NCBI GenBank assembly: GCA_951812745.1
Contig: OX638327.1
Coordinates: 1,725,914-1,789,913 of the forward strand
Length of the DNA stretch: 64,000 nucleotides
DNA from: an uncultured Nitrospirales bacterium
GTDB taxonomy: Bacteria; Nitrospirota; Nitrospiria; Nitrospirales; UBA8639
Reading direction: 5' to 3'
Shown: one piece after another, positions 28,425 to 64,000 of the stretch
How positions within the stretch are numbered: position 1 is the stretch's first letter
Layout: every line of letters starts with the position of its first letter
Position numbers and translations under genes: made by a program
The notes under the pieces: model-generated
The model's input: the letters and a program-made list of their open reading frames with translations, nothing else
Database searches by the model: none
What the model was told of the DNA's origin: nothing

Positions 28425-28810
28425 GTCCACACCCTCTGGTTCACGCCAATCCCCCCCCATGCAGGCTGCCGCCTGCACACCAAGAGATGAAAATGGGATA
28501 CCTCGGCAACCATTATTGTATCAAGAATCTCCTTCTGTCATCCCTGTATGTGTTCACTCATTCCCTTCGACTTCGCTCTGCTACGCTCAGGATAGACTTT
28601 TGTGCCCCAGTGTCCCGCCCCTTCGACAGACTCAGGACAGGCTTTGGAAGACAACCCCCTCAATCCCCCTTATCAGGGGGACGGCACAGAGCCCTCTCCC
28701 CCCTGATAAGGGGGGCCAGGGGGGTTCCGACACACAAGAAAAAATAAAGCCCCGCGACATGCAAAAGGAGTCTGCCGCAGGGCCCTTATGCCGATATCTG
28801 ATGTGTGAGA
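28425..28810. repeat. Repeat-rich gap
   Basis: No gene. It holds two copies of the CTTCG...GCTCAGG family (28559-28590 and 28620-28642) and an inverted pair of the CCCCTTATCAGGGG family (28652-28680 against 28698-28726). Confidence 0.8.
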
Positions 28811-32783: not shown

Positions 32784-33244
32784 AGGCTTCTTTCCCTACT
32801 CCATGCAGAATATAAATGTGTCCCGCTGACGCAATCGTTCAAGTACTGTATGCCGGTCCACGGAATTTCGCAACCTGGAAAAAGCCCCAACAAGCCGGAT
32901 ATTTAGGCCATTTCCGAGCTCGGCTGCATGAGGCTTTTGACCCAGCATTCCCCGTGCTGCGCCAGAGCATCACTATAGGAATTTCCGGAAGATCCTGTCA
33001 ATTCGCAAAAGGAGGAACGGGCGGTATGGAACACGACCCGCCTTGGGCGCGGCTGCGCTCCAGTGCCGAATCGTTATGGGACGGCGAGGATGGTTTGAGC
33101 GAAGACCGTCGGGTTACGCCTACGTCTAACCCGACCTACGAATCTGAACCCCCCTTGCCCCCCTTATCAGGGAGGCGGGGAACTCTGCCATCCCCCTGAT
33201 AAGGGGGATTGAGGGGGTTGCCTGACAAAGCCAGCGCGCGACGA
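32784..33244. repeat. Gap with an inverted pair of CCCCTTATCAGGGG repeats
   Basis: No gene is supported. Positions 33148-33219 are a facing pair of the family whose core is CCCCTTATCAGGG and CCCCCTGATAAGGGGG. The promoter of the oxidoreductase operon should lie between about 32790 and 32900 but I see no clear hexamers. Confidence 0.7.
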
Positions 33245-54896: not shown

Positions 54897-55375
54897 CGAA
54901 CTTCTATCTCCGATGGGGAGGCGTGCTCATTGTCGCGATCGTGTTCATCGTGCTCACCTATAACCACTATCGTGACAACTTGGCCAGTCTTGTCCCCCAA
55001 CAGGTCAAACAGGAGGCGCCCACCGGCGACGTCCGGGTCCTGGGCATGGTGCAAGGCGGAACGCTCGAGACCCGTGAAGCCGGAGAAGCCACGTTCACCC
55101 TGCTTGGGAAAAACGCCACGCTTCCCGTTCACTATCAAGGCCCGCCCCCGGATAATCTTCGGGAATTGAAAATTCTGATCCTGATCGGGACGTGGAACGC
55201 GGCCACGCAAGTTTTCGAGGCCCGCGACATCGGAATCGTCCCGAACTATGGATTTATTGCCGGCGCCTATCTTCTGGGCCTCTTGCCGTTGGCGCTGTTT
55301 CTGTTTGCCATGGCTCGGCGAGTCAACTTCTTGTATGAAGAAATCAAAGCCTCCAAACTGTATGAGGAAGATTGA
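54893..55375 (+). CDS. CcmE-like OB-fold protein with CcmD-like tail
   Basis: The 160-residue protein has an N-terminal helix, a periplasmic OB-fold similar to CcmE (GDVRVLGMVQGGTLETREAGEATFTLLGKNATLPVHYQGPPPD) and a C-terminal helix with a charged end (GAYLLGLLPLALFLFAMARRVNFLYEEIKASKLYEED) recalling CcmD. The histidine that binds heme covalently in CcmE is absent; the true CcmE is at 57183. No separate ccmD exists in the operon, so this protein may do its job. It overlaps ccmC by four bases. Confidence 0.7.
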   Translation: MTNFYLRWGGVLIVAIVFIVLTYNHYRDNLASLVPQQVKQEAPTGDVRVLGMVQGGTLETREAGEATFTLLGKNATLPVHYQGPPPDNLRELKILILIGTWNAATQVFEARDIGIVPNYGFIAGAYLLGLLPLALFLFAMARRVNFLYEEIKASKLYEED

Positions 55376-55381
55376 GTGACG

Positions 55382-55412
55382 CACCCTCACCCCAGCCCTC
55401 TCCCGTTGTACG
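55382..55412. repeat. Left half of a CCCTCACC palindrome split by IS481
   Basis: CCCTCACCCCAGCCCTCTCCC is one arm of the palindromic repeat. The other arm (GGGAGAGG) resumes after the IS at 56695-56704. Confidence 0.7.
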
Positions 55413-56681
55413 GACCGGAGAGATAGGTAACAGGTGTTCGGGGACATGGGTAACACATTGTGCCTTAGTGAGCGGGGTGGTGTAAATCGAGATCCGCTAC
55501 ATGTTGATGACAAAAATACACCCGCCAGAGCCCATCGTGGGGCGTCGGGCGGAGCGCGACGGGGTAGCCCCGGAACGCTTTGCAGACGCGAAAGAGCCGT
55601 CCACGATACGAGACTTCGCCTTGGGCCTGGACCTTGCGCACGATATCGGTGGCGCCATACTCAATGGGCGGCAGGCTTTCGGGGAACCCGCGGGGACTCG
55701 GCTGATAGCGCGACGCGGGGACGGCCATCGCCAAGGCTTCATGGGGGCGGTCCAAGTTATAGAGGGCGCGCCAGCGGTCAAAGTGCTGTTGGCAGTGCGC
55801 CAGATCGAGAAAGAGGCGCTGGTGGAGCAGCTCCGCTTTGAGGGTGCGATGAAAGCGTTCGTCTTTGCCCAACGTCTGGGGATGCGCGGGTCGGGCATGG
55901 CTGATCGCAATGCCGAGGCGGATGCACCAGACGGTCAGGGGCGTGAAGGGGCGGCCGGCCCGATCGCCCCAGGGGGCGCCGTTATCCATCAGCAGGCGGG
56001 CGGGCAAGCCATACCGCCGGAAGGTGGCGGTCAAGTGCGCCTGGACCGTGGCCGTTTGTTCATTGGCACAGGCTTGCAGACACAGGGCAAACCGGGAACA
56101 GTCATCCAAGATGGTCAGGGGGTGACAGCGGCCCGGCCCCACGGCGAAATGGCCTTTGAAATCCATTTGCCACAAGGCATTGGGCGTGGTGTGTTCGAAG
56201 CGCTGCCAAGCCTTGGGGGCGGCGGCGGGTGCGAGGCACCCGTGCCGGCGCAGAATGGCGGTAATGGTGCTCGGTGCCGGGACCGCGGGATAGCCCAACG
56301 CCTGCAAGCGGGCGTGCAGCTTCCGGCCGCCCCACGCCGGCTGGGCTGCGCGCAGTTGGAGAATCGCCTGCTCGAGCGCTTCCGGCGTACGCTGGGGCAT
56401 CTGGTGGGGGCGCCGGGAGCGGGCCTGCAACCCCGGCGCGCCCTCGACCGCATACCGGGCCAGCCATTTATACCCGGTCTTGGGGCTGATGGCGAACGCG
56501 CGACACAGGGCGCGGACGTTGCGGGCGGGCTGCGTGGCTAACACGATGAACTCTTTGCGTTGCGACATAGTGGACACCTCTTTCCATGGCATGGTCGGTC
56601 TCCCTTTCGATTTGGGGGTGAACCATGCACTCTACAGGTGTTACCTATGTCTCCGAACAGGTGTTACCCATGTCCCCGGTC
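55413..56681 (-). mobile_element. IS481-family insertion sequence
   Basis: The element is about 1.27 kb and carries one transposase gene. Its ends are imperfect inverted repeats beginning GACCGG (55413 on the plus strand, 56681 on the minus strand) and containing two copies each of a GACAT(A/G)GGTAACA-type word. It is inserted in the loop of a dispersed palindrome between the ccmE-like gene and ccmE. No clean target duplication is evident. Confidence 0.85.
55465..56568 (-). CDS. IS481 family transposase
   Basis: From ATG 56568 (GAGGTG seven bases upstream) the 367-residue protein has an N-terminal HTH (RNVRALCRAFAISPKTGYKWLARY), a linker and a DDE integrase core: Asp in WQMDFKG, Asp in LLMDNGAPWG and Glu in KDERFHRT. 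A C-terminal beta region follows. All catalytic residues are present and the frame is intact, so the element may be active. Confidence 0.95.
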   Translation of the reverse strand: MSQRKEFIVLATQPARNVRALCRAFAISPKTGYKWLARYAVEGAPGLQARSRRPHQMPQRTPEALEQAILQLRAAQPAWGGRKLHARLQALGYPAVPAPSTITAILRRHGCLAPAAAPKAWQRFEHTTPNALWQMDFKGHFAVGPGRCHPLTILDDCSRFALCLQACANEQTATVQAHLTATFRRYGLPARLLMDNGAPWGDRAGRPFTPLTVWCIRLGIAISHARPAHPQTLGKDERFHRTLKAELLHQRLFLDLAHCQQHFDRWRALYNLDRPHEALAMAVPASRYQPSPRGFPESLPPIEYGATDIVRKVQAQGEVSYRGRLFRVCKAFRGYPVALRPTPHDGLWRVYFCHQHVADLDLHHPAH

Positions 56682-56741
56682 TATACACCCGTCAAGGGAG
56701 AGGGGATTTGAAGAAAAGAGAGGGGAAGTGGAGGAGAATTT

Positions 56742-56778
56742 CCTCTCCCTTGATGGGAGAGGATTAAGGTGAGGGTGA
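56742..56778 (+). repeat. Left inverted repeat of the DUF559 cassette
   Basis: A hairpin CCTCTCCC-ttgat-GGGAGAGG (56742-56762) is followed by ATTAAGGTGAGGGTGA, which contains the ribosome-binding site of the gene. It is inverted relative to 57126-57162. Confidence 0.85.
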
Positions 56779-57173
56779 TGAACAATCCGGCAAAGGCCCA
56801 AGAGCTTCGGCAACATTCAACCGATGCCGAACAGGCACTGTGGAAACGACTTCGAAACCGTCAACTGGCAGGTTACAAATTTCGCCGACAAGTGCCTATC
56901 GGCAAGTATATCGTCGACTTTGTCTGCTTCGAACCAAAAGTGGTCATTGAGGTGGATGGCGGCCACCACCAAGAACAAGCCCGGTACGACACCGCCCGGA
57001 CCACCTGGCTGGAGTCGCAAGGTTTCCAGGTGTTACGGTTTTGGAATCACGAAGTCCTGACCGACGCAGAGGCTGTACAAGAGGCGCTGCTTGGGGCCTT
57101 GCAGGAGGATTCACTTTCTCCTCAATCACCCTCACCCCAACCCTCTCCCGTCAAGGGAGAGGGAGGAAGATGA
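56778..57173 (+). CDS. DUF559 (Vsr-like) endonuclease domain protein
   Basis: ATG 56778 gives a protein opening NNPAKAQELRQHSTDAEQALWKRLRNRQLAGYKFRRQVPIGKYIVDFVCFEPKVVIEVDGGHH, the DUF559 signature. It has the PD-(D/E)XK-like residues in DFVCFEPKVVIEVDG and RFWNHEV. The family resembles Vsr mismatch nucleases; biochemical roles are poorly known. Its C-terminal tail (SPSPQPSPVKGEGGR) is translated from the right-hand palindrome, and its ribosome-binding site lies in the left-hand one. Confidence 0.9.
   Translation: MNNPAKAQELRQHSTDAEQALWKRLRNRQLAGYKFRRQVPIGKYIVDFVCFEPKVVIEVDGGHHQEQARYDTARTTWLESQGFQVLRFWNHEVLTDAEAVQEALLGALQEDSLSPQSPSPQPSPVKGEGGR
57126..57162 (-). repeat. Right inverted repeat of the DUF559 cassette
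   Basis: TCACCCTCACCCC is followed by the hairpin CCCTCTCCC-gtcaa-GGGAGAGGG. It mirrors 56742-56778 and provides the last codons of the gene. Confidence 0.85.
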
Positions 57174-61650: not shown

Positions 61651-61865
61651 TCTTCCCCGATAAAAGACAACCCCCTCAATCCCCCTTATCAGGGGGACTT
61701 CATGCGACTAAGCGGAGAGTCGAACCGACGATGAACAGGATCTCATACCCCCCTGATAAGGGGGACCAGAAGAGCAAAACTCAACGTGACACCTCCAAGA
61801 AACCCAAGCCACTAGCCAACCCCCCTGATAAGGGGGGCGGGGGGGTTGGGGGCCAGGGGGGTTTT
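61651..61865. repeat. Cluster of CCCCTTATCAGGGG palindromes
   Basis: Copies at about 61666-61698, 61748-61770 and 61818-61865 lead directly into the coding part of the DUF559 gene and supply its N-terminal codons (PPDKG phrases). Confidence 0.85.
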
Positions 61866-62276
61866 ATCCCTTACAACAAGGACCTGACCGACAAGGCGCG
61901 TGAAAACCGAAAAAATCCAACACCTGCAGAAAAAAGACTCTGGTTTGAAATATTGCAGAACAAACGGCTTGGCAAATTCAAATTCATCCGGCAAAAACCG
62001 ATCGATCAATATATAGTCGATTTTTATTGCTCAGAATTAATGCTTGCTATCGAGATAGACGGCGATACACATGCCGAACAACAACGATACGACGCAACCA
62101 GAACCCAAAGACTGAATAAGCTGGGCATCGAAGTCTTTCGCTATCCAAACACGGAGATACTGAATAATCTTGAAGGCGTTTATGAAGATCTCCTGAAACG
62201 TGTTGCCGAAAGAACATCCCCCCGAACAGGCTACAGGACGCTAGACGAACAGGCAGGCCTCTCCTGTCCCCCCTGA
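61731..62276 (+). CDS. Second DUF559 protein with repeat-coded N-terminus
   Basis: The frame opens at ATG 61731, but its first 45 residues (PPDKGDQKS...NPPDKGGGGVGGQGG) are translated palindromes. The real DUF559 domain starts at FIPYNKDLTDKARENRKNPTPAEKRLWFEILQNKRLGKFKFIRQKPIDQYIVDFYCSELMLAIEIDGDTHAEQ. Nuclease-like residues D, E and D match the other copy. No start codon lies close to the domain boundary. Either the long form is made, or the native start has been overwritten by repeats. It ends at another palindrome (62262-62300). Confidence 0.8.
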   Translation: MNRISYPPDKGDQKSKTQRDTSKKPKPLANPPDKGGGGVGGQGGFIPYNKDLTDKARENRKNPTPAEKRLWFEILQNKRLGKFKFIRQKPIDQYIVDFYCSELMLAIEIDGDTHAEQQRYDATRTQRLNKLGIEVFRYPNTEILNNLEGVYEDLLKRVAERTSPRTGYRTLDEQAGLSCPP

Positions 62277-62374
62277 TAAGGGGAGCCAGGGGGGTTCTCT
62301 CTTACGACAAGCATAAACCGAATTAATTTTCGCCAGATACGAAAATAGGGCCGCCCAAAGGTCTGATTCCTCCC

Positions 62375-63821: not shown

Positions 63822-64000
63822 GACAACCCCCTCAATCCCCCTTATCAGGGGGACTTCAGTTCAGGCAACCGGAAGTTCGTCTACAATACACCACCTCCCT
63901 TCTCCTTCCGCCTTTTCAGGGGGACTTCATGCAACAACCTGGGGGAGAGGCTCGGCGACTTTTTTCCCTGCAATCCCCCTTATCAGGGAGCTTCATGCAA
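63822..64000. repeat. CCCCTTATCAGGGG repeats to the window edge
   Basis: Copies at about 63828-63856, 63905-63930 (degenerate) and 63970-64000. No gene is seen. Confidence 0.85.

Follow-up and report, generated by a model that had tools for sequence, protein, structure and literature searches.

Why does a gene for a DUF559 protein start and end within two mirror-image palindromes, and could its product mobilise or maintain such palindromes, as was proposed in a preliminary description by analogy with REP sequences and the RAYT transposases? The question is raised by a locus in a stretch of 64,000 nucleotides ('the window'; G000:C1:1725914-1789913) from the complete 2.35-Mb genome of an uncultured Nitrospirales bacterium (G000), whose closest named relatives in a contig scan are metagenome bins of Nitrospirales and Nitrospira. 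The palindromes and the gene, together referred to as the package, are found in a cytochrome c maturation operon, between a ccmD-like gene (end at 55375) and ccmE (57183).

The package and its surroundings

The features of the locus, including a palindrome upstream that is split by an insertion element, are the following:

55382-55406, plus strand: left half of a split type-B palindrome (leader and 5' arm)
55407-56687, minus strand: IS481-family insertion in the hairpin loop of that palindrome (transposase at 55465-56592, minus strand)
56688-56705, plus strand: right half of the split type-B palindrome (loop and 3' arm)
about 56741-56777, minus strand: left palindrome, type A; hairpin CCTCTCCC-TTGAT-GGGAGAGG (56742-56762), then leader ATTAAGGTGAGGGTGA
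56778-57173, plus strand: DUF559 gene (PF04480, E 3e-45); stand-alone nuclease gene of the YcjD/PRK09767 type
about 57126-57163, plus strand: right palindrome, type B; leader TCACCCTCACCCCAA and hairpin CCCTCTCCC-GTCAA-GGGAGAGGG

The mirror-image relation of the bracketing palindromes is real: the arms (56742-56779 and 57125-57162) are 89% complementary and make up an inverted repeat of 38 nt, with the left copy reading hairpin then leader and the right copy leader then hairpin. The gene indeed begins and ends inside them, as had been claimed. The Shine-Dalgarno-like AAGGTGAGGG lies within the leader of the left palindrome, directly upstream of the ATG at 56778 (an alternative GTG start is present at 56769), and the C-terminus of the protein (...SPSPQPSPVKGEGGR) is encoded by the right palindrome, which supplies the final 15-20 codons together with the stop (57171-57173).

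The type-A/B hairpin was recovered in 65 copies from G000 and in none for a reversed-pattern control, and because of this difference the bracketing is not a matter of chance. As is characteristic of REP-like repeats, the genome holds multi-copy intergenic palindromes as well as inverted pairs; the solo copies include B/A pairs with the leaders outward and the hairpins facing each other, 36-80 nt apart, which is the topology of a REPIN. Judging from the copy coordinates, no gene-sized interval of less than 2 kb other than the DUF559 package lies between inward-facing leaders in G000.

The gene-less palindrome copies that had been reported nearby, at 55382 and 56695, do correspond to a type-B palindrome, but they are not separate copies. 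They represent the two halves of a single palindrome that was split by the IS481-family element, which is flanked by a 5-bp target duplication (CCCGT; 55402-55406 and 56688-56692) copied from the hairpin loop. The order before this insertion is B-A-gene-B.

The only other DUF559 domain of G000, overlooked in the preliminary description, is located 5 kb downstream and is packaged as well:

61821-61865, minus strand: left palindrome of the second package, CCCCCTGATAAGGGGG, then a G-rich leader
61881-62204, plus strand: second DUF559 domain (E 1.3e-32), within the ORF 61731-62276; different clade
62269-62296, plus strand: right palindrome of the second package, CCCCCTGATAAGGGGAGCCAGGGGGGTT

The window contains 11 copies of the palindrome family of this package (CCCCCTNATNAGGGGG), where 0.37 would be expected, and the whole genome contains 51. 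Further inverted pairs of this family, around 34 nt apart and REPIN-like, occur at 28665-28714, 33159-33207 and 63837-63990. Several members of the genus have the second package (61821-62296) in the same position behind ccmI, and its right palindrome was seen only in G000.

Generality and inheritance of the package

The bracketing of DUF559 by inverted palindromes is general. Pyrimidine-armed hairpins were found on both sides of 85 of the 123 DUF559 loci (>10 phyla) against 5 of the 351 control ORFs, in a sequence-blind test that counts any pyrimidine-armed hairpin within about 200 nt. Within 59 relatives DUF559 genes lie between palindromes whose sequence varies from clade to clade, and a flank-to-flank inverted-repeat score of at least 20 was reached by 29 of 48 DUF559s and by none of 61 control ORFs. 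A contig scan of 84,980 species genomes, in which three DUF559 sequences served as the query (a nine-sequence alignment being too diverse), yielded 80 loci from Chloroflexota, Proteobacteria, Nitrospirota, Nitrospinota, Actinomycetota, Elusimicrobia, Armatimonadetes, Aminicenantes, Bipolaricaulota, Desantisbacteria and others, and the same score was attained at 56 of 77 loci versus 9 of 257 control ORFs. The placement of type A to the left and type B to the right of the gene is clear in the Nitrospira family of G000 and weak overall (27:19 vs 16:32, p 0.02). A leader pattern with 3 mismatches was equally common in the control and was dropped. Relatives of DUF559 in phages numbered only three, all weak, one of which is annotated as a homing endonuclease. 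A search of Rfam gave no match and a PADLOC search only marginal matches to large proteins. Two DUF559-like domains (loci L051 and L052) form the C-terminus of very large proteins, and both are without flanking palindromes.

To establish how gene and palindromes are related, we compared 44 pairs of related DUF559s (60-93% identity) from different genomes and non-orthologous sites. Both palindromes were common to each pair (mean scores of the adjacent flanks 39.2 and 39.3, versus a background of 12.6 and 12.7), and the outer flanks did not align. One pair with matching flanks was even present within a single genome (L027/L055), and where one genome has several DUF559 clades, their palindromes differ. 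These matches at non-orthologous sites imply that palindrome, gene and palindrome are inherited and displaced as a unit, and that the palindrome belongs to the protein clade and not to the genome. When DUF559s from one genome were given each other's flanks at random, the observed match was reached in 0 of 2000 cases, a signal that stems in part from orthologous sites, which the 44-pair comparison excludes. Finally, the DUF559 gene has a dN/dS of 0.09-0.24 and is therefore under purifying selection.

Relation to triplex motifs, copy number and site occupancy

In three consecutive blocks (leader, 5' arm and 3' arm), and for both types A and B, the palindromes of G000 match the intrastrand triplex motif (TM/PIT). 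The E. coli representatives, TM_ECO, were described by Holder et al. in 2015, who also cite the PIT elements of Hoyne et al. (PMC4666352). They have the same sequence, CCCTCACCC-(TAA or CGG type spacer)-CCCTCTCCC-loop-GGGAGAGGG, likewise come in types A and B, and in K-12 each of the five close pairs is an inverted A+B pair, an arrangement also found here; triplex formation in vitro has been demonstrated for TM_ECO only (PMC4666352). The describers found no mobility gene near the motifs and do not mention DUF559 (PMC4666352), whereas in our data the motif brackets DUF559, including ycjD, the DUF559 gene of E. coli. In the open-access literature we found no paper that joins DUF559 with palindromes or hairpins.

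Presence of ycjD is polymorphic among E. coli genomes: 3,333 of 5,426 contain at least 80% of the query. Strain KE47 has an intact type-B motif and then a type-A motif behind the gene, and in K-12 (L194 831-1184) the palindrome at its right end is shortened and the type-B leader deleted. The ycjD-less allele of SCU-306 is rearranged. In strain 167 a deletion extends from ycjD into the palindrome.

Counting palindromes across genomes showed that their copies track DUF559, and that they are not equally frequent in genomes without it. In the Gammaproteobacteria (321 genomes), 10 or more net copies were present in 18 of 69 with a strong stand-alone DUF559, in 1 of 31 with only weak DUF559-like matches (many in large proteins) and in 7 of 221 without (Fisher p 1e-7). 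For the Nitrospirota relatives, 15 of 26 genomes with DUF559 reached this number versus 4 of 33 without (p 3e-4). Palindrome-rich genomes are around 10 times likelier to carry DUF559; the association tests include no correction for phylogeny. Exceptions occur: DUF559 was not detected in 13 gammaproteobacterial genomes with at least 5 net TM copies (e.g. 49 and 32), and a looser search of these gave no convincing remnant; either they have lost the gene, or a different enzyme takes its place. Remnants were found in other genomes, namely in G007, which combines 59 palindromes with a 29-residue DUF559 stub behind an intact left palindrome, and in G092, which has a DUF559 fragment with a stop. Palindromes are therefore likely to persist after loss of the gene, though perhaps not in every DUF559-less genome.

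A comparison of the ccmD-ccmE junction across 14 genomes of the genus confirmed the expectation that empty sites exist. The junction is empty, with a tight spacer of 10-20 nt, in G001, G002, G003 and G004. A solo palindrome is present in G006 and G012 (type A) and in G007 (type B), B plus A without a gene in G009 and G013, A-DUF559-B plus A in G011, B(IS)-A-DUF559-B in G000 and a palindrome from another family in G005. We found no recent insertion whose ends are exact and whose empty counterpart is clean, and no target duplication was recognised at the palindromes. In E. coli a clean insertion point cannot be read, because at three TM loci the alternative alleles carry RAYT-type REPs and not an empty site. 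These loci (gldA-yijF, gabP-gabT and yraQ-dolP; L180, L183 and L191 vs L195 and L198-L202) have triplex motifs in one strain and RAYT-type REP/BIME in others, such that two unrelated palindrome systems alternate.

The nuclease, its possible role and alternative explanations

The product of 56778-57173 matches DUF559 (PF04480) with 153 bits, well above the curated cut-off of 20.6. Its AlphaFold2 model (pLDDT 89) is closest to the solved structures of NGO0050 of Neisseria gonorrhoeae (3HRL, Z 16.3) and I-Bth0305I (3R3P, Z 11.8), followed by Vsr with DNA (1cw0, Z 10.3) and TnsA (7.5). E18 and D47 do not vary across 42 sequences, and conservation is at least 90% for E58, D60 and H64. Judged by the modelled fold and this conserved acidic/His site, the protein is a Vsr-like PD-(D/E)XK nuclease, the superfamily in which YcjD had been placed before 2005. 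Vsr, VsrA of Caulobacter, YcjD and the gonococcal NGO0050 share fold and family with the DUF559 of the window, but they have been discussed only in terms of mismatch repair or as proteins without known function, and we found no report of the palindrome package in the open-access literature.

We consider it probable that palindromes and DUF559 constitute one two-part element, selfish or domesticated, with a Vsr-fold nuclease in the place of RAYT. The palindromes, with a hairpin and a leader able to pair as a third strand, would be the ends of the element; palindrome-DUF559-palindrome would be the full unit, from which the solo copies and inverted pairs would derive as non-autonomous forms. The nuclease would most likely nick the structured palindrome when it is single-stranded, for instance at the replication fork, after which the freed hairpin-ended strand, or a copy of it, would be pasted by host repair at another exposed intergenic spot. 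The working would thus resemble that of REP/REPIN and RAYT with an unrelated enzyme. We infer the nicking at forks and the repair-mediated pasting from four features: the fold of the enzyme, the hairpins at the ends, the lack of a visible target duplication at the palindromes and the REPIN-like topology. More tentatively, and as a serious possibility, DUF559 proteins could be the mobility enzymes of the triplex/PIT palindromes throughout bacteria, from E. coli to Nitrospirota and Chloroflexota, and these palindromes a class of miniature mobile elements that move through the nicking of hairpin or triplex DNA by a Vsr-fold PD-(D/E)XK nuclease, without any known class of transposase.

The proposed parallel with REP and RAYT, with a mobilising or maintaining role for DUF559, is thus partly supported. 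It held in each of the comparative tests (the generality of the package, the clade-matched palindromes, the copy-number link, the empty sites and the absence of RAYT) and is opposed by the palindrome-rich genomes without detectable DUF559; that the protein itself recognises and nicks the palindrome, and by cutting or moving it drives its spread, is what we infer. With REP/REPIN and RAYT (TnpA-REP) the system has in common that the palindromes are short, intergenic and present in tens to hundreds of copies, also as inverted pairs, that one small enzyme gene is flanked by inverted cognate repeats (DUF559 replacing RAYT) and that the repeat class follows the enzyme clade. It differs in that the enzyme is a PD-(D/E)XK Vsr-fold nuclease and not an HUH Y1 transposase, and in that a C-rich leader (TCACCCTCACC) mirrors the hairpin arm and the GTAG/CGTC tag beside the hairpin is absent. 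The gene-less end pairs recall the non-autonomous copies of MITEs, and TnsA of Tn7 is a PD-(D/E)XK nuclease that acts in transposition, but here there is no DDE partner enzyme and no recognised target duplication. Similarly, the EDxHD homing endonuclease I-Bth0305I is a Vsr-like nuclease tied to the mobility of its own gene; it homes, however, into one intronless site via a double-strand break, and palindrome ends or non-autonomous copies are not known for it.

The chief rival explanation is that DUF559 is a Vsr-type nuclease for T:G mismatch repair, and that the palindromes are hitch-hiking mobile or recombinogenic repeats that carry the gene between genomes and are not its substrate. Considering that the fold is close to Vsr (see the Z-score above) and that VsrA of Caulobacter, which contains DUF559, was proposed to be a mismatch nicking/repair enzyme and causes SOS once a cytosine methyltransferase is lost (PMC12907096), this explanation has to be taken into account, yet we deem it unlikely, as it accounts neither for clade-specific palindromes at unrelated sites, even within one genome, nor for the near-absence of packaging for other genes (the 5 control ORFs in 351) or the copy-number association. 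The nuclease might also act as a guardian that cuts or resolves hairpins or triplexes at forks and renders the palindromes tolerable or addictive, with mutual selection and no movement of the repeat. TM motifs do block polymerase and mark unstable loci (PMC4666352), and the purifying selection on DUF559 is consistent with such a task; the prediction would then be one gene per genome at any position, in conflict with genes inside palindromes at many sites, and the existence of palindrome-rich genomes without DUF559 also makes this improbable.

If the palindromes were ordinary terminators or expression signals, a reading suggested for Enterobacter sp. 638, where 100 such repeats are reported at gene 3' ends (PMC2869309), their position around DUF559 would be a coincidence or would serve expression of the gene. 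Control genes at these loci lack such flanks, however, the ccmD-ccmE junction of close relatives is unoccupied and the palindromes follow the DUF559 clade, so that we hold out little prospect for this reading. Mobilisation by RAYT (Y1/HUH) transposases, with DUF559 as a passenger, would fit the REPIN-like topology of the solo inverted pairs, but is highly improbable: matches to Y1_Tnp (PF01797) are lacking in G000 and in five palindrome-rich congeners, and at least 10 palindromes were found in 5 of 31 genomes with RAYT-type proteins versus 14 of 28 without, an inverse association. For G000 the lack of PF01797 matches refutes RAYT mobilisation, unless its RAYT were too diverged for the Pfam model.

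A two-part element of palindromes and DUF559 would bear on two questions at once. Catalogues of triplex/PIT palindromes exist for hundreds of bacterial genomes, K-12 among them, with their mover not known, and DUF559 (ycjD in K-12) has no known cellular task; the connection supplies a hypothesis for both that lends itself to testing in a laboratory strain, and puts DUF559 forward as the first good candidate for an enzyme behind the spread of these repeats. If true, REP-like repeats arose at least two times around unrelated DNA-nicking enzymes, and the repeat-derived C-termini of many 'hypothetical proteins' would be explained. Finally, in G010 the ccmD-ccmE site (L172 2035-2724) harbours a GIY-YIG nuclease gene (2277-2606, PF01541) between long direct repeats of the GTCATTCTGAGCGAAGCG type, which is possibly another system of a nuclease plus repeats.
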